The notes below the pieces were generated by a model. It ran no database searches and was not told where the DNA came from. It saw only the letters and a program-made list of their open reading frames with translations. The translations under genes and the position numbers were made by a program. 42,666 nt of DNA. Origin: Methanosarcinaceae archaeon (GTDB taxonomy: Archaea; Halobacteriota; Methanosarcinia; Methanosarcinales; Methanosarcinaceae). Positions within the stretch are counted from its first letter, which is position 1; the number at the start of each line of letters is the position of its first letter. This document shows, in pieces, positions 11,715 through 42,558 of this stretch. The stretch spans positions 1 to 42,666 of the forward strand of contig JAIPUR010000023.1 of NCBI GenBank assembly GCA_020055655.1. Reading direction: 5' to 3'.

Positions 11715-11907
11715 TAAGAGTTATTGAAGTTACTCAAATGGATCAAATGCATTGCATTGCCAATGAAAGTCCCAGAAAAAGTGAATAAAAAGGTCACGTA
11801 GAATAAATAGTAGAATTAAACCTGGTATATTAGACTGATTTTTGTGAATTCGTGTGACCTATAACTATATATTTCTAATATACATGGTTAAAGGTAGAGG
11901 GAGAAAA

Positions 11908-12711
11908 ATGACTGTATTAAGCATATTGGCCTGTAAAATACTTCAGGATGAAATTGTCTGGCTGTTAAGCAACGATTCTGAAATTGATAATATTTTGGTA
12001 GTAGAAAGTGACAATATTTCGGAATTTACAAAAAAACTTGATGAGCAGTATGTTCCTTATGAGATCTTGCCACACGATAAAGTACCAGACAAAGTTGAAG
12101 AGAATGATGAAGATAAACTGAATGTTGTTGTCAACTTCCGGGAAGTTGCACTTCACATGATATTAAATAGACTGAGATCTGAGATATATAAGAACATAGA
12201 AGAAATGACCCCGTATTCCAACGGAATCCTCTTATTTTATGGACTTTGCGGTAATGTTCTGGGCAAGGTCGAAGAAGATTTCCCTGTGGATAAATGTGGT
12301 TCAATAGTACGAATACTCAAGGATAATGAGGGCTGGATCGTAGATGACTGTATAGCAGCAACTGTAGGTGGATGTGTGAAATATTCTAATTTATTAAAAG
12401 AATGTAATAAGGAGCCTGCTTTCTTTTTGACACCTATGTTCGCTAATTCATGGAAAGAATTCCCTCTTACAGGTTACGATTTTGATACAGATCCCGAAGA
12501 AGCCTTGAGACTGACAAAAATGATCAATGACCTTGGAGGATATTCAAGAGCTGCAAAGGTCAACACCGGCCTCATGTATGTAAAAGATTTTGATGAAAGG
12601 GTCGAAGAATATGCAGAAATGTTCGGATATAGTATTTTTGAAATAAATGGTGATCAGGAAATATTTGAGAACTGCTATCGATCACTAAAAAATGAATTAG
12701 AGATCATGTGA
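11908..12711 (+). CDS. DUF1638 protein
   Basis: 267 residues from ATG 11908 (MTVLSILACKILQDEIVWLL), which has a GAGGGAG ribosome-binding site; the upstream ATG at 11854 lies before it. Conserved points are the Cys in LACKILQDE, YGLCGNVLGKVEED, and VDDCIAATVGGC. These match the DUF1638 family, common in methanogens near methylamine/corrinoid methyltransferase genes; function unknown. Cysteine-rich pockets suggest a metal or cofactor site (inference). A related N-terminal domain seems to occur in the kinase at 24147-25832. Confidence 0.85.
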   Translation: MTVLSILACKILQDEIVWLLSNDSEIDNILVVESDNISEFTKKLDEQYVPYEILPHDKVPDKVEENDEDKLNVVVNFREVALHMILNRLRSEIYKNIEEMTPYSNGILLFYGLCGNVLGKVEEDFPVDKCGSIVRILKDNEGWIVDDCIAATVGGCVKYSNLLKECNKEPAFFLTPMFANSWKEFPLTGYDFDTDPEEALRLTKMINDLGGYSRAAKVNTGLMYVKDFDERVEEYAEMFGYSIFEINGDQEIFENCYRSLKNELEIM

Positions 12712-19200: not shown

Positions 19201-19246
19201 AGTTGCTAAATAATTTATAAGATTTGTGATTCTATGGGGTCCTTTA

Positions 19247-20032
19247 ATGCAAAAACCATTAATTGATGTTCTTTTCATGTCAGAAAAAAGAAAGACTGTT
19301 CTCTTACTACTGAAAGATGGTGCAAAGGAAATGAGTCCTCTTATAGATCATCTGAAAACTTCAAGGCAATCATTGCTCCCACAAATGAAAATACTGGAAG
19401 AGCATCATCTGATTACTCACTATGATGACATTTATGAATTGACATGTATTGGAAAACTTATTGTTGATAGTATGGTTCCTTTACTAGATAAAATCGACGT
19501 TCTTGATGCTAACATTGATTACTGGGGAAGTCGTGAACTTGCTTTCATTCCACCTCAGCTTTTAGAGAAAATATCCCAGCTAGATAAATGCGAAATAATA
19601 AATCCATCCATTCATGAGTTGTTTTCTATTCATACATCAATCAATCCAAAATGTGAAGAAGCTTCATGTGTTTATATCGTAACTAATATACTATACCCCG
19701 ATTTTCAATCGACAATTGTAGATATACTTGAAAAAAATACTGGTATACAGTATATCGTTTCTCAAAAACTGCTTGACGAGATAAAAACAAAATACCAAAA
19801 AGAATTTGCAACTTTTCTTAAGAACAAGTCCTTCAAGATGTATGTTTGCAATAAAGAAATGAAATTTTTGTATTTTACGTTTGATAGTGAACAATCACTT
19901 CTAACCGTGTTAAACAAGAAAGAGGAATTTGATCATAAGTTCATGTTATGTAAAGACCAGGATGCAGTCGACTGGATTAAAGAGCTTTTTGAATATTACT
20001 TTGAAGATTCAACGCTGATAACTGAAATATAA
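19247..20032 (+). CDS. FilR1/DUF1724-type transcriptional regulator
   Basis: 261 residues from ATG 19247 (MQKPLIDVLFMSEKRKTVLL). The N-terminal winged helix has LIDHLKTSRQSLLPQMKILE and EHHLITHYDDIYELTCIGKL; the C-terminal domain (about 110-250) has LYPDFQSTIVDILEKNTGIQ and ends with WIKELFEYYFEDS, as in the methanogenesis-related Msr/FilR1 regulators of Methanosarcina that control methyltransferase genes. It lies 2.4 kb upstream of the corrinoid/methyltransferase operon on the same strand, a plausible target. The GTG at 19226 is a less likely start. Confidence 0.85.
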   Translation: MQKPLIDVLFMSEKRKTVLLLLKDGAKEMSPLIDHLKTSRQSLLPQMKILEEHHLITHYDDIYELTCIGKLIVDSMVPLLDKIDVLDANIDYWGSRELAFIPPQLLEKISQLDKCEIINPSIHELFSIHTSINPKCEEASCVYIVTNILYPDFQSTIVDILEKNTGIQYIVSQKLLDEIKTKYQKEFATFLKNKSFKMYVCNKEMKFLYFTFDSEQSLLTVLNKKEEFDHKFMLCKDQDAVDWIKELFEYYFEDSTLITEI

Positions 20033-22453: not shown

Positions 22454-23092
22454 ATGGAAAGTGATAAAAAATCAGTATTAAATCTTGAAGATGCACTACT
22501 AAAAACTGATAAAATAACTGCAGAAAGTATCATTCGCAGTAACTTACTTGATAAGCAAGTAGATGTGTTTAAGGTAATTGATTTGATAATCTCACCTGCA
22601 CTTGAAAGTATTGGGCATAAATGGGAAAATGGAGATATTGCCCTTTCACAGGAATATATGGCAAGTAAGATCACAGAAGAAATTATTAATGAAATATTGC
22701 CACCTGAAAATCCAATGAGAACTTCAAAACCAAACATAGGCATTACTACCCTTGAAGACCAGCACATGCTTGGGAAACAGATATTGAAGAGTCTATTAAA
22801 CTCAAAAGGTTTTAACCTTACTGATTATGGTAGCATACCTATCGAAAAGATAAAAGAAAAAATAAAGTCAGATAATATCGAAGTTCTTTTTATATCCACC
22901 CTTATGTTAAACCAGGCACTAGCAATAAAAGAAGTAACTAAGTTTATAGAGTTAGAAAAAACCAATACTAAAGTCATAGTAGGTGGAGCACCTTTTCTTT
23001 TTGATGATAGATTGTGGAAAGAAGTCAATGCCAATGCAATGGCTAAGACTGCTGTAGGTGGTATGTATATAATTCAGGAAATGATGGGGTAA
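22454..23092 (+). CDS. Corrinoid (B12-binding) protein of a methyltransferase
   Basis: 212 residues: helical cap about 5-85 (GHKWENGDIALSQEYMASKI) and a Rossmann-like B12 domain from 93. Asp102-x-His104-x-x-Gly107 (DQHMLGK) is the lower-axial-ligand motif; ISTLMLN and VGGAPF are the other cobalamin loops. Such proteins carry a methyl group on Co between a substrate-specific methyltransferase and a methylcobamide:CoM methyltransferase. Here no substrate-specific methyltransferase is adjacent; the next gene, one base after the stop, is an MtaA/MtbA-type protein and the third a kinase. Confidence 0.93.
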   Translation: MESDKKSVLNLEDALLKTDKITAESIIRSNLLDKQVDVFKVIDLIISPALESIGHKWENGDIALSQEYMASKITEEIINEILPPENPMRTSKPNIGITTLEDQHMLGKQILKSLLNSKGFNLTDYGSIPIEKIKEKIKSDNIEVLFISTLMLNQALAIKEVTKFIELEKTNTKVIVGGAPFLFDDRLWKEVNANAMAKTAVGGMYIIQEMMG

Positions 23093-23093
23093 T

Positions 23094-24140
23094 ATGATGA
23101 TTAAAGAAGAAATGACATCTATGGAACGTGTACTGACCACACTCGGGCAGGAAGAACCCGATAGATTACCTTATTTTCTCCTGTTAACCATGCATGGTGC
23201 TAATGAACTGGGAATGTCAATTAAAGAATATTTCTCAAATCCTGAATATGTGGCTGAAGGACAAATACGCATGAGGGAGAGGTATGGACATGACTGCTAC
23301 TATACTTTCTATTATGCATCGCTTGAGGTAGAGGCTTGGGGAGGAAGTACAATATTCTATGAGGACGGTCCTGCAAATTCAGGAGCACCTTTCATAAAAA
23401 ACATTGAAGACATAAAAAATCTAGAAGCACCGGATATATGGGATAGCCCACAGCTTCTTAAAGTCCTGAAAACAACAGAAATACTAAAAGAGCAGGCGGG
23501 GGATGAAGTACCAATAATTGGAGTTGTAATGTCACCATTTTCTACCCCACCTATGCAGCTTGGTTTTGACAAATATTTTGACCTCATTTATGAAAACCGT
23601 GAATTGTTCGATAGACTCATGGAGGTTAATACAGAATTCTGCATCGAATGGGCAAATGCTCAATTGGAAGCAGGAGCTACAGCTATTTGTTATTTTGATC
23701 CTGTATCTTCGCCAACAATTGTTCCAAAGGAGTTGTATAGGGAAACTGGAAATAAGATCGAGCAAAATGTTATTTCCAACCTTAATGGTCCAACTGCAGT
23801 TCACCTTGCATCAGGAAAGGCTTTACCGATAATAGATGATATTGCAGATGCAGGAGCTGCGGTAGTCTGTACCAGTTCATTAGAAGATCTTGCAGAAGTC
23901 AAAGCAGCATGCAAAGGCAAGATGTCTGTACTTGGTAATCTGAATGGTATTGATATGAGAAACTGGACTCCTGAAATAGCCGATAATAAAGTTAAAGAGG
24001 CTATTGATAAGGCTGCAAAGGGAGGAGGTTTCATTCTTTCAGACAACCATGGCGAAATCCCATATCAGGTATCAGATGAAGTTCTTATAGCTATTTCTGA
24101 TGCAGTCAGGAAGCACGGATTTTATCCAATTAATAGGTGA
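23094..24140 (+). CDS. MtaA/MtbA-type methyltransferase without Cys zinc ligands
   Basis: 348 residues of the uroporphyrinogen-decarboxylase fold family that includes methylcobamide:CoM methyltransferases. MERVLTTLGQEEPDRLPYFL, GVVMSPFSTPPMQLGFD and SVLGNLNGID are family marks. The catalytic zinc site in MtaA/MtbA is H-x-C near residue 237 and a second Cys near 319; here the codons read His237-Leu-Ala239 (VHLASGK) and His319 (SDNHGEIP). Loss of both Cys ligands while the gene is otherwise intact suggests altered chemistry or a non-catalytic, methyl-corrinoid sensing role. Starts at 23094; ATG 23112 is possible. Tightly coupled to the corrinoid gene and to the kinase gene. Confidence 0.88.
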   Translation: MMIKEEMTSMERVLTTLGQEEPDRLPYFLLLTMHGANELGMSIKEYFSNPEYVAEGQIRMRERYGHDCYYTFYYASLEVEAWGGSTIFYEDGPANSGAPFIKNIEDIKNLEAPDIWDSPQLLKVLKTTEILKEQAGDEVPIIGVVMSPFSTPPMQLGFDKYFDLIYENRELFDRLMEVNTEFCIEWANAQLEAGATAICYFDPVSSPTIVPKELYRETGNKIEQNVISNLNGPTAVHLASGKALPIIDDIADAGAAVVCTSSLEDLAEVKAACKGKMSVLGNLNGIDMRNWTPEIADNKVKEAIDKAAKGGGFILSDNHGEIPYQVSDEVLIAISDAVRKHGFYPINR

Positions 24141-24146
24141 AAACTA

Positions 24147-25832
24147 TTGATAGACAATATCTGCTTAATTGTCCCCGAGGATATCGTTAAGGAGGTCGAG
24201 TACATTGTAAGTAGCAATGACCTCTTAAAAAATATCAATGTCATCTCGATACCTTATACGAATTTACTCGAACAGAATTTTGATTGTGTGAACTGTAGTT
24301 TGATTCAAGAATCACTTGAGAGCTCGGAATGTTTCTACAAAGCTTTATTGATCCATGGTTTTGAATTCCCTCAGATCGTAAAATCACCAGAATGCAATAT
24401 AACACTTCATACACATGGGATGGAGAATCTATACGAACTTATGCTGAGTGCTAGAGAACTGCAAGAACATAAAGGAAAATTAATAATCTCATCTGGATGG
24501 CTTGATAAGATCATCAGTAATACAGAAAATGATGAACAGGAAAAGGAAAGGGTCAGGAAATATATTGACACATCCTATTCCTCCATCCTCCATATTGAAA
24601 CTGGTTTTTATGAAAGCAGTTCTAGCAATATAAAAAAACTATCAGAAATAACTGGAAAATCTTTCAAAACAGTATCTATTGATATGGACCTCATGAAAGT
24701 GCAACTAAAGAGCATCGTTCTTGAACATGACTGTATCAGTAAAGCTGAAAACTTAAAAGAATCAAATGAAAGGATTGCATCCTACTCAATGTCCATTGAA
24801 ATCATAAAGGAACTTGTAGAACTTAAGACCGAAGAAGATGTTATAGAAAAAATAGCACAAACGTGTCATGTTCTGTTTGCACCAGAGAAGGTCAGTTATA
24901 TTTCATTGAGAAAAGGACTTGTTCAATCACAAATATCCATAATGTCTGATTCAAATGCTGATTTGAACAAGGAGTTACTTGAAACGGATAAAATGTATTT
25001 GATTTTTAATAATCGGGATGGATTCATCCTGAAAATCGCTGATAGTAACGAGATTATGGGGACCATTGAAGTTCAAAAAGTATTTAGTCCTCAGAAAATA
25101 TCGGAATACCTGAATACAGCTCTTATTATTGCAAAGGCATCATCCCTTGTTGTATCGAACATTCGAAGATATGAGGAACTTAGTGAATCAAAAAAACAGC
25201 AACGCGAGCTTGCTGACATGTTGATGGTGATGAATAAGATATTGAGACATGATATTGCTAACAACCTCAACGTAGAAATAAATGCCATTGAATTATATAA
25301 TCTTAAAAAAGAGGACAGGTTCCTTAAAATGGCACAGGATTGTGCACATAGAAGTGCAAAAACTATCGAAAATATGAAAGATATTGAGGAAAGTCTGTTC
25401 TCAGATGAACGGGATCTTCTGCCGTATCATGTCCGCAATACAATTGAAAGTACATGTTCCCATTTTGATATCCTTAGCAATATAGAAGGCGATGCACTCA
25501 TAATGGCAGACAGTGCTCTCCCCTCGACTATTGAAAATATTGTGCGGAATGCGCAGGTTCATGGCAAGGCAGACGATGTTCAAATTTTTATTGAAGATGA
25601 TGAAACCAAATGTACTATCAATATTCAAGATAATGGGATTGGAATTCCTGAAGAGATTAAAACACGCATATTTGATGAGGGAGTCAAATATGGAGATACT
25701 GGCAATACGGGCCTTGGTCTATATATTGTGAAAAAGACTATTGAAAGATATAAAGGCACCGTATCTGTAAAGAATAATGAACCGAAAGGTGCTACTTTTG
25801 TAATTGAATTACCATCTATTCACATTATGTAA
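24147..25832 (+). CDS. Histidine kinase with DUF1638-like N-terminus and GAF domain
   Basis: 561 residues, no membrane helix. Residues 1-195 resemble DUF1638 (ALLIHGFEFPQIVKSPECNI, IISSGWLDKI, NIKKLSEITGKSFKTVSIDM), though its CGN motif is absent. A GAF-like part spans about 215-340. The transmitter has phospho-acceptor His368 (NKILRHDIANNLNVE), N-box IENIVRNAQVHGK, G1 DNGIGIPEEI and G2 TGLGLYIVKK. Start is TTG at 24147, six bases after the methyltransferase stop, with AGGTGAAAA before it. Cytosolic sensing of the corrinoid/methyltransferase state is the natural reading of this operon. No response regulator lies nearby. Confidence 0.88.
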   Translation: MIDNICLIVPEDIVKEVEYIVSSNDLLKNINVISIPYTNLLEQNFDCVNCSLIQESLESSECFYKALLIHGFEFPQIVKSPECNITLHTHGMENLYELMLSARELQEHKGKLIISSGWLDKIISNTENDEQEKERVRKYIDTSYSSILHIETGFYESSSSNIKKLSEITGKSFKTVSIDMDLMKVQLKSIVLEHDCISKAENLKESNERIASYSMSIEIIKELVELKTEEDVIEKIAQTCHVLFAPEKVSYISLRKGLVQSQISIMSDSNADLNKELLETDKMYLIFNNRDGFILKIADSNEIMGTIEVQKVFSPQKISEYLNTALIIAKASSLVVSNIRRYEELSESKKQQRELADMLMVMNKILRHDIANNLNVEINAIELYNLKKEDRFLKMAQDCAHRSAKTIENMKDIEESLFSDERDLLPYHVRNTIESTCSHFDILSNIEGDALIMADSALPSTIENIVRNAQVHGKADDVQIFIEDDETKCTINIQDNGIGIPEEIKTRIFDEGVKYGDTGNTGLGLYIVKKTIERYKGTVSVKNNEPKGATFVIELPSIHIM

Positions 25833-33089: not shown

Positions 33090-34363
33090 GGTTCTCTTTA
33101 ACATCGTGTGGGTAAACTCAGTTTACCTGCCATCAAGAATATCATTGTACTCCTACACTTCTCAGTCTTTAATCCATATGATCTCTTAAAAGCAGTCTTG
33201 ATCTTGTTGTTCAATCCTTCGACAACACCATTACTGATTCCTTGCTTAATTGATTCCAATATCCCATGAGAATTCCGCTTTATCATTTTAGCTAATGTGA
33301 TAATTTCCTTGATGTTACTATGCGTTCCCCAATAATGCCATTTATCAAGATATTCCTTTGCTACTGCTATATTTTTGATCTCCCACAGACGTTGAAGTCC
33401 AAGCTTGAATCTATAAGCTTTCGCTGTCTTAGTATCCAGATCTTTGATCGAACCCATCTTAGTTATTTCTCTATTCGATAGATTTTCAGGATTTTTCAAC
33501 CACATAAATCTCGTTTTACCAAGTTCTTTATTTGTTTGATATTCCTTCCTTCGAACCTTATCAATGGCATCATTCATCATTTTGACAATATGGAACTTAT
33601 CGTAAACTATCTTAGCATTTGGGAAATATTCTCTTGCTCCACCCTTAAAAGCAGGATACATGTCCATTGAAATACACTTGATATCATCGGGATCTATCTT
33701 CCTGGAAAGAACTTCTCTGAAGTTCTTGAAAACAGTTCTTTTCTTCCCATTTTCAATATGAATTACTCTTGATTGATTTAGATCATAGAACAAGGTCACA
33801 TAGCTGTGACCTTTTTTAACGGAGATTTCATCCACTCCGATAGTATCTAGCTCAGAGAGATCCATCTTTGCTCTTGCTTCTTCAACATAATGAGCTAGAA
33901 TTATCCAGACTGAATTTTCATTAATGTTGACCAATTCAGCAATGGAAGAGATACTCATTTCTTTAGACATAGCAACGATCAGTGCTTCAAAAAATAATGT
34001 GAATCCAGTGTTCTGTCTGGTCCAGGGAACTTCAACAAGTTTTACCCCATCCCCATCACACTTTGTTCGGGGAACTCTTGCATGAATGTATGTTTCATGA
34101 TGGAAAAAATCAAGGTGTCTCCATACTTTTTCTTTGGTATCATGGAGATCACACAGTTCGTTGCAAACAGGACAGGGGAACTTCGTTCCCCTTGTAAAAT
34201 CAAGATAAATATCCATTCTTTTATTAGAAACATCAAGATTAATGTCTTTTACATACCAAGGACTTGAGAGTCCTAATGCAAGTTGTATAAGGTCTTTATC
34301 TTCCATACCAATTGAATTGGAGAATATGAATATTAACTTACCCACTCAATCTTAAGGAGATCC
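33090..34363 (-). mobile_element. ISL3-family insertion sequence, complete
   Basis: 1274 bases between 8-bp duplications. Imperfect 29-bp terminal inverted repeats are at 33090-33118 and 34335-34363, 22 of 29 matching; the outer ends are GGTTCTCTTTAA and (reverse) GGATCTCCTTAA, the inner parts share GTGGGTAA. One intact transposase gene on the minus strand. The element interrupts the methyltransferase gene and looks young. Confidence 0.95.
33098..34306 (-). CDS. ISL3-family transposase
   Basis: 402 residues from ATG 34306 (MEDKDLIQLALGLSSPWYVK). N-terminal zinc ribbon FPCPVCNELCDLHDTKEKVW and a second Cys/His part; then helix-turn-helix SISSIAELVNINENSVWIIL. DDE catalytic core: Asp in DTIGVDEISVKKGHSYVTLF, Asp in CISMDMYPAFKGGAREYFPN and Glu in GISNGVVEGLNNKIKTAFKR. 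Family usual length about 400-430, so complete. Its stop codon lies within the left terminal repeat. Confidence 0.95.
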   Translation of the reverse strand: MEDKDLIQLALGLSSPWYVKDINLDVSNKRMDIYLDFTRGTKFPCPVCNELCDLHDTKEKVWRHLDFFHHETYIHARVPRTKCDGDGVKLVEVPWTRQNTGFTLFFEALIVAMSKEMSISSIAELVNINENSVWIILAHYVEEARAKMDLSELDTIGVDEISVKKGHSYVTLFYDLNQSRVIHIENGKKRTVFKNFREVLSRKIDPDDIKCISMDMYPAFKGGAREYFPNAKIVYDKFHIVKMMNDAIDKVRRKEYQTNKELGKTRFMWLKNPENLSNREITKMGSIKDLDTKTAKAYRFKLGLQRLWEIKNIAVAKEYLDKWHYWGTHSNIKEIITLAKMIKRNSHGILESIKQGISNGVVEGLNNKIKTAFKRSYGLKTEKCRSTMIFLMAGKLSLPTRC

Positions 34364-41085: not shown

Positions 41086-42558
41086 CTACAACACTTGTTT
41101 CTGCTTTCTCAGATAATTTGTTCTCCACTCAAAATATTCTTTATCTACGTAAGGGTTCTTGTCCATTTTTATACATGGATGTCTTATTATCTTCGTATCT
41201 GTAAAAGATTTGAGTTTAAGCCCATCAGCAGCGAATACCCAATTTCTTGACCCAATCCTGTGCCAATATCTATTTACTTTCCATTGGTGTGATTTATGTG
41301 GATGTCGCCTTTTCGCCCACGTCCATAGCATGTTCCATAATCTGAAATCAAGCTTACTGAACGTATCTTTAGCGACAGCCGATCGATGATATTCGCTCCA
41401 TCCAGTGATAATAGGGTTGAGTCTTTTAATGAGAGAACTTTGAGACAGAGCCTTGCCTTTCTTAATCACATTGCTAATGCTTTTTGTGATATTCTCAATA
41501 GATTTGTTCGAGGGTTTGATCAGGAGTTTACCGTTATATTTTCGGAAATTCCATCCCAGGAAATCAAATCCATCATCTATATGGGTGATAAGGGTTTTCT
41601 CATGAGATAGTTCCAGTCCTCTATCCTTCAGGAATTGTCTGATAATCTCAGCAATATCTTTAGCTACTTCTTCTGAATCTGCAGTAACAATAAAGTCATC
41701 TGCATACCTCACAAAATTGACTTTATGAGGGTTGTATCTATTTTTATAGATAGTTCCCCTCTTGTTTGTACGGTATCTAGATGCTATCGCATTTTCCATA
41801 CCATCCAAAGTCATATTCGCCAATGTTGGAGATATTAAGCCACCCTGGGCAGTACCTGCTTTGGTAGGATTCAGATGTCTGTTATAGACAAAACCAGCTT
41901 TAAGGAATTGCTTAAGTATTGACTTGTCCATAAGGATGTTGTGCAGGAGCCATTCGTGATTTATGTTATCAAAGCATCCTCTTATATCACCTTCCAGAAT
42001 CCATTGAGCAGAGTTTCTTTTACTCAGACATACAAAAAGTTGAGATTTTGTATCCTGTGTACTTCGATATTTACGAAATCCAAAAGACCTTCTGTCTGCT
42101 GTGGTTTCTGCTATTGGGTTTAGAGCAAAAGCAGCCTGTATTGCTCTATCGTACATTGTAGGAATGCTTAATGGTCGTTTTTTCTTTTTCCCTTGTTTTT
42201 CTATATAGATTCTTCTCGATGGTTTGGCTTTGTAATTCTTACCTGATAACTCTAGAGCAGCTTTCATCTTAGAGTTGGATGTTGTCCATTTTTCTCCATC
42301 GATTCCTGCTGTTCTTTTTCCTTTGTTCTGTGTTACCTTCTTTACTGCCAGTAATTTGGCATGAAAATAGTTGGTAAGCAAGTATTGTAGCCGTTTAACT
42401 AAATGCCAATTCTTTTGTCTAACCGCTTTTACAATCCGGGTTTGCAGCTTATTAACATTCTTTTCTACTGTTTTCCAGTTGATTTGTTCCCATTTGATTG
42501 GGATTGAATTGTCTACAAGCCTCTCACCTGAAGGTGTCGTTGAGTGTCTTGCATTCAT
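41086..42558 (-). CDS. ltrA: Group II intron reverse transcriptase/maturase
   Basis: 490 residues. RT blocks: GKRTAGIDGEKWTTSNSKMK, RPLSIPTMYDRAIQAAFALN, ILEGDIRGCFDNINHEWLLH, GTAQGGLISPTLANMTLDGM, the catalytic FVRYADDFIVTADS and FDFLGWNFRKYNG. Then the maturase X domain IITGWSEYHRSAVAKDTFSK. The end (KRRHPHKSHQWKVNRYWHR) lacks the CxxC pairs of an HNH endonuclease, so the enzyme seems endonuclease-free. AAAGGAGGCAAAC before the ATG is a strong ribosome-binding site. It supports splicing and reverse-splicing of its own intron. Confidence 0.95.
   Translation of the reverse strand: MNARHSTTPSGERLVDNSIPIKWEQINWKTVEKNVNKLQTRIVKAVRQKNWHLVKRLQYLLTNYFHAKLLAVKKVTQNKGKRTAGIDGEKWTTSNSKMKAALELSGKNYKAKPSRRIYIEKQGKKKKRPLSIPTMYDRAIQAAFALNPIAETTADRRSFGFRKYRSTQDTKSQLFVCLSKRNSAQWILEGDIRGCFDNINHEWLLHNILMDKSILKQFLKAGFVYNRHLNPTKAGTAQGGLISPTLANMTLDGMENAIASRYRTNKRGTIYKNRYNPHKVNFVRYADDFIVTADSEEVAKDIAEIIRQFLKDRGLELSHEKTLITHIDDGFDFLGWNFRKYNGKLLIKPSNKSIENITKSISNVIKKGKALSQSSLIKRLNPIITGWSEYHRSAVAKDTFSKLDFRLWNMLWTWAKRRHPHKSHQWKVNRYWHRIGSRNWVFAADGLKLKSFTDTKIIRHPCIKMDKNPYVDKEYFEWRTNYLRKQKQVL

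Follow-up and report, generated by a model that had tools for sequence, protein, structure and literature searches.

A corrinoid protein, a zinc-less methyltransferase homologue and a DUF1638–GAF sensor kinase form a conserved gene module with a proposed signalling role

In a 42,666-nucleotide contig of a Methanosarcinaceae archaeon (JAIPUR010000023.1, assembly GCA_020055655.1; this whole stretch is hereafter the window), three plus-strand open reading frames (ORFs) with intergenic gaps of 1 and 6 bases encode a corrinoid protein, a homologue of the methyltransferases MtaA and MtbA that lacks their zinc ligands, and a soluble histidine kinase whose sensor region comprises a DUF1638-like and a GAF-fold domain (Table 1). 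A sequence-only reading of the window had described this layout, which the ORF listing bears out, and proposed that the pair of methyl-transfer proteins was recruited as a methyl-corrinoid sensor feeding a phosphorelay. We find that the unit, taken in that reading as an oddity of methanogens, is instead a widespread and mostly bacterial module with variable outputs. Gene context strongly favours the signalling half of the proposal, and a signalling role is well supported by it; methyl-corrinoid as the sensed state, and the alternative use of a different methyl acceptor, are what sequence leaves undecided. We consider it probable that the corrinoid/methyltransferase pair is the input of the kinase, and give an even chance to the fuller reading that the three genes form a dedicated signal-transduction module (that is, the corrinoid protein and the zinc-less methyltransferase as input arm and the kinase reading them through its DUF1638-like domain). 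That methyl-cobalt itself is the signal is a possibility that we raise with some doubt.

The reading rests first on gene order. Loci were chosen by methyltransferase similarity only, giving 101 distinct family loci; the corrinoid gene lies directly upstream of the methyltransferase gene in 99 of 100 testable loci, and a third gene with the DUF1638-like/GAF region directly downstream in 95 of 97 (the DUF1638 part being present in 82). In L135, one of the two misses, a homologous ORF is present and was excluded by rule because the frame opens within the preceding methyltransferase gene. The third-gene model had no match in the control loci that carry zinc-type paralogues (0/20). The co-occurrence of the variant methyltransferase with a kinase-type gene, which the earlier reading had proposed to check, thus holds, and the three genes stand in the same order in all 20 Methanosarcinaceae loci as well as far beyond that family. 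Three-gene homologues with intact zinc ligands, or a pair without a conserved neighbouring kinase, would have spoken against the earlier proposal, and neither is what the loci show.

The second gene product matches the URO-D Pfam family (192.6 bits), and its AlphaFold2 model (predicted local distance difference test (pLDDT) 93) has MtaA as its top match in the PDB (4ay8/4ay7; template-modelling (TM) score 0.85). In the phmmer alignment with M. mazei MtaA (4ay7), His237-Leu-Ala239 falls opposite the zinc-binding His-x-Cys and His319 opposite the third ligand, a cysteine, which confirms the replacement of the H-x-C...C site that had been read from the window. The change is no peculiarity of this sequence: across 111 family members, His237 is present in 109, Ala239 in 110 and Asn318-His319-Gly320 in all 111, and some 65 positions of the protein are conserved at 97% or more. 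Among 20 zinc-type paralogues, 19 have cysteine at the 239 position (H-x-C) and 18 have the third cysteine. Membership in the MtaA/MtbA (SCMT) enzymes was rejected: the URO-D fold is present, but the zinc ligands are absent, the family lies outside the zinc-type clade and the protein scores below all NCBIfam cut-offs (for example, 124.5 bits for mtaA_cmuA against a cut-off of 235.4). A true uroporphyrinogen decarboxylase is not favoured either, given that phmmer places Tyr74 opposite the Asp of the UroD FSD motif, which we take to be catalytic. His319, on the other hand, does align with the conserved UroD His. A non-classical metal site formed by His237, His319 and another residue is conceivable. 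One family member (genome G046, locus L069:7067-8104, minus strand) has Gly at position 239 and an in-frame TAG where Trp82 is otherwise conserved, as it is in the close relative G033; the TAG is either a nonsense change or a site of amber read-through.

In a search of 100 relatives, we found 20 further methyltransferase copies (including a second copy in the window’s own genome) at 60–85% identity, followed by a drop to 31%. Identity to the window methyltransferase stays within that range inside Methanosarcinaceae and is 52–64% elsewhere. Scanning 84,980 species genomes yielded 263 confirmed relatives, of which 80 were kept; by their record titles these belong to Chloroflexota, Thermodesulfobacteriota, Bacteroidota, Nitrospirota, Nitrospinota, Pseudomonadota (including Allochromatium isolates), Verrucomicrobia, Aminicenantes, Neomarinimicrobiota, Riflebacteria, SAR324 and Bacillota, so that the hosts span at least ten bacterial phyla in addition to methanogen families other than Methanosarcinaceae. 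Contigs of metagenome-assembled genomes (MAGs) may be misbinned; the module is also found in the isolates Desulfonema magnum, Desulfocicer vacuolatum and Allochromatium. Occurrence is patchy, with family-level members in 3 of 297 Thermodesulfobacteriota and 1 of 296 Bacteroidota genomes (the centre genome being counted each time). The tree, another check proposed in the earlier reading, unites the Ala239/His319 variants in one zinc-less clade (support 100), apart from the zinc-type enzymes (98). Within this clade Methanosarcinaceae form one group (93) amid bacterial and other archaeal sequences, a placement consistent with horizontal spread. These data also dispose of the notion of a decayed, lineage-specific methyltransferase that stands beside an unrelated kinase by chance: although the loss of zinc ligands taken alone would fit it, the ligand change is common to orthologues in many phyla, the ratio of non-synonymous to synonymous substitution rates (dN/dS) is 0.09–0.25 for all three genes, indicating purifying selection, and gene order is near-universal, for which reasons we regard decay as refuted.

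By the sequence criteria of the class, the third gene product is a predicted two-component histidine kinase, having an H-box His (His368) and N, G1 and G2 boxes. Hydropathy indicates a soluble protein, HATPase_c is matched at 75.9 bits, and members of the window clade retain both the H-box His (His368 is invariant in 18 kinases) and the ATP-binding boxes. In M. acetivorans, those kinases with an H-box His that were assayed proved to be true autokinases, and archaeal kinases are often orphans (PMC11784639). Although DUF1638 (PF07796) has no Pfam match in the window kinase itself, it reaches E ≤ 0.01 in 46 of the 66 third genes (best 1.9e-14) and is matched in the paralogue at G000:C2 of the window’s own genome (28.9 bits, cut-off 27), and a profile comparison by hhalign between the window clade and the genome’s own DUF1638 proteins gives E 6.5e-6; the resemblance of the N terminus to DUF1638 that the earlier reading had noted is thereby supported through relatives. 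The AlphaFold model of a bacterial third-gene member (pLDDT 94) shows an N-terminal alpha/beta domain followed by a long helix and then by a further domain for which Foldseek matches GAF domains such as that of KdpD, in agreement with the GAF assignment. Foldseek recovered no solved relative of DUF1638 in the PDB, its matches being limited to the GAF and kinase-linker part. Across third genes the sensor region is constant and the outputs exchange (HATPase 43, HisKA 31, Response_reg 10, GGDEF 5 and Hpt 3; n = 66). Bacterial DUF1638-like domains carry four conserved cysteines (residues 10, 38, 71 and 93 in locus L107), an arrangement that, as far as sequence goes, resembles a metal or Fe-S site. 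Among the DUF1638 proteins of the genome, which number at least seven, a stand-alone one is encoded within the window at 11854-12711 (plus strand), and the window shows neither a corrinoid nor a methyltransferase gene next to it. In several Methanolobus genomes (loci L053, L054, L057, L060 and L066), a MASE3-type membrane histidine kinase gene lies downstream of the operon, its kinase core being about 40% identical to that of the DUF1638–GAF kinase.

The link between the two sensor domains is seen again at greater distance. Eight loci from Thermodesulfobacteriota and Bacteroidota genomes (L199–L206; E 1e-43 to 1e-61) encode a methyltransferase homologue without the zinc triad; a DUF1638-like gene is present in all eight and a corrinoid gene is visible in all but L203. 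Most of them have a stand-alone DUF1638 gene followed by a separate GAF-PAS gene, the parts being fused in L202. As DUF1638 and GAF are separate neighbours in one clade and a single protein in the other, the Rosetta stone argument points to a functional link between them, and the sister loci are, on sequence grounds, probably members of a wider class of corrinoid/zinc-less URO-D/DUF1638–GAF modules.

Within its 212 residues, the first gene product passes Pfam cut-offs for B12-binding_2 and B12-binding only; with these two domains and the DxHxxG motif, it is, by sequence, a presumptive methyltransferase corrinoid protein. The motif (Asp102, His104 and Gly107), whose retention had been noted earlier, is indeed there, and recurs in the best corrinoid match of all 101 loci examined. 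In the second operon copy of the window’s own genome (G000:C2), an extra corrinoid paralogue upstream (L067:8858-9517, minus strand) has D-E-F-L-L-G in its place, so that the cobalt-ligating His is lost. Since cobalamin photoreceptors are established (PMC11796333, PMC6199135), the corrinoid protein might sense light or redox state in the manner of CarH and AerR, with the methyltransferase homologue only as a scaffold. The two B12-binding Pfam domains shared with CarH (1.3e-10) and the presence of the module in the phototroph Allochromatium would fit such a role; however, the match to corrinoid families of methyltransferases is stronger (1.8e-17), the hosts are mostly anaerobes of dark sediments, and the conservation of the methyltransferase seems more than a scaffold would call for. 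CarH has a helix-turn-helix of its own with which it acts on DNA, and Pfam found no MerR-type N-terminal DNA-binding domain (a CarH feature) in the window protein; neither CarH nor AerR, although likewise B12-binding sensors, comes with a methyltransferase homologue or a kinase. We therefore hold this alternative to be improbable.

A more serious competitor, although in our view unlikely, is that the two proteins form a small methyl-transfer pair serving catabolism or biosynthesis (such as an O- or N-demethylase independent of His-Cys-Cys) and that the kinase only regulates the expression of their own or a distant pathway. The strong conservation of the methyltransferase agrees with this, as do superfamily O-methyltransferases in which carboxylates or non-coordinating residues replace the zinc Cys ligands (Kountz and Balskus, PMC10418091). 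In the mec dichloromethane cassette, genes for a corrinoid protein and URO-D methyltransferases likewise occur together with that for MecA, a kinase with a PocR domain (PMC9768040), but this catabolic cluster also encodes a receiver and a transporter along with its several MTI/MTII enzymes, whereas the families flanking the present module are mostly kinases and receivers and the Methanolobus loci inspected lie among housekeeping genes. The constant companion over many phyla is moreover the sensor region and not a catabolic partner. In none of nine genomes searched does a RACE (PF14574) gene lie near the module, and two of them (one draft MAG and one draft isolate) have no PF14574 at all, a pattern that speaks against a catabolic cycle of high turnover. 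Type 1 mlp clusters (PMC10418091) likewise combine MtaA-like proteins with a corrinoid protein and are widespread in anaerobes; they encode several His-Cys-Cys Mlps and RACE and have no sensor, so that the module, with its single methyltransferase, no His-Cys-Cys and no RACE nearby, is not one of them. With MtaA, MtbA and MtsA (that is, the soluble methylcobamide:coenzyme M methyltransferases), the family shares the fold and the corrinoid partner and differs in its zinc site, its separate clade and its near-constant sensor neighbour.

The same lack of a nearby RACE gene would also suit an ATP-driven machine in which DUF1638 and the GHKL ATPase reactivate the corrinoid protein instead of signalling. 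DUF1638 tracks RamA across Alphaproteobacteria, and a role in B12 reactivation has been proposed for it (PMC5764234). Yet the phospho-acceptor His and kinase boxes are conserved, receiver, Hpt and GGDEF outputs would be useless for reactivation, and sister loci have separate GAF-PAS genes; we judge this option very unlikely.

We thus return to the module as a signalling device. The DUF1638 protein PGA1_c13340 of Phaeobacter inhibens is needed for a split B12-dependent methionine synthase and adjoins its corrinoid gene (PMC5764234). Like the methanogen copies it is homologous to the domain discussed here, although it stands alone and not within a kinase. Its requirement and position suggest that DUF1638 in the sensor docks on the corrinoid protein, and this suggestion, together with the lack of a RACE gene nearby, favours the sensor reading. 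In the mechanism that we envision, the methyltransferase would bind a small ligand, probably a methylated compound, and either add a methyl group to the corrinoid, take one from it, or do no more than gate it; the cobalt state (methyl-Co, Co(II) or Co(I)) would change as a consequence; the DUF1638 domain would dock on the corrinoid protein and relay its state to the kinase by way of the long helix and then the GAF domain; and altered phosphorylation of His368 would be passed to a receiver encoded elsewhere, which would carry the output. The methyltransferase may accordingly supply ligand specificity, the corrinoid protein hold the state and the kinase read it. The methyl-cobalt state as signal, the ligand, the physical contact and the methyl transfer are steps that we infer. 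Several observations weigh against the module as a dedicated signalling device: no receiver gene is seen beside the operon among the window ORFs; the methyltransferase is the best conserved of the three proteins (mean column identity 77% versus 58% and 53%), as might equally be expected of a genuine enzyme that makes a product of its own; in about 15% of third genes the GAF part alone is retained; and the DUF1638-like domains of Methanosarcinaceae lack most of the cysteines conserved in bacteria, so that the reader may have another mode of action in that family.

No description of the module was found in the literature searched (in which subscription journals and bioRxiv were covered only in small part), and the earlier reading, which knew of no described signalling system of this make-up, is borne out within that scope. 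The terms histidine kinase, DUF and signal are absent from the text on type 1 mlp clusters (PMC10418091), and a census of archaeal two-component systems (PMC5847659) does not mention corrinoid or cobalamin. The module suggests an apparently undescribed way of using a B12 protein as a sensor. It is conceivable, although we lean slightly against it, that it embodies a new sensory principle, in which a pair from methyl metabolism, stripped of its thiol-activating zinc, became a chemical detector: across archaea and bacteria, a DUF1638 adaptor would read its methyl-cobalt or redox state and couple it to outputs that can be exchanged for one another, such as histidine kinases, diguanylate cyclases and phosphorelays. 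If so, methanogens, sulfate reducers, purple sulfur bacteria and many uncultured anaerobes would use methyl-cobalt chemistry to sense as well as to catalyse; the orphan domain DUF1638, which B12-dependent methionine synthesis requires, could be assigned a testable function in reading corrinoid proteins or partnering them; and a candidate input would be at hand for some of the numerous orphan kinases that methanogens have.

Table 1 Features of the operon, with positions in the window
Feature	Position	Strand	Basis
First gene, corrinoid protein, 212 aa	22454..23092	+	Pfam B12-binding_2 and B12-binding; orthologues upstream of methyltransferase
Second gene, URO-D-fold MtaA-like methyltransferase homologue without zinc ligands, 348 aa	23094..24140	+	Pfam, alignment, AlphaFold2
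His237-Leu-Ala239 codons, at position of zinc ligands His-x-Cys	23802..23810	+	Family alignment
Asn318-His319-Gly320 codons, at position of third zinc ligand Cys	24045..24053	+	Family alignment
GGTGA, likely ribosome-binding site of kinase gene	24136..24140	+	Read from sequence
Third gene, soluble histidine kinase with DUF1638-like and GAF-fold sensor region, 561 aa	24147..25832	+	Pfam, profiles, fold of relative
DUF1638-like domain, about residues 1-190 of kinase	24147..24716	+	Pfam in relatives, profile comparison
GAF-fold domain, about residues 226-335, preceded by long signalling helix	24822..25151	+	Secondary structure and Foldseek on homologue L107, mapped by alignment
His368, predicted phospho-acceptor, ILRHD H-box	25248..25250	+	Invariant in 18 kinases
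HATPase_c domain, kinase residues 460-556	25524..25814	+	Pfam, 75.9 bits

The kinase gene starts with TTG, at a position where its orthologues have ATG, and the GGTGA element lies 6 bases 5' of this codon and overlaps the stop codon of the methyltransferase gene. At 2.4 kb upstream of the operon (19226-20032, plus strand), the window encodes a FilR1/Msr-type regulator (FilR1_middle, 2.6e-23), which is a possible output partner. Mobile elements, judged by eye, share the contig with the operon, namely a group II intron reverse transcriptase (41086-42558, minus strand) and a transposase (33098-34345, minus strand).

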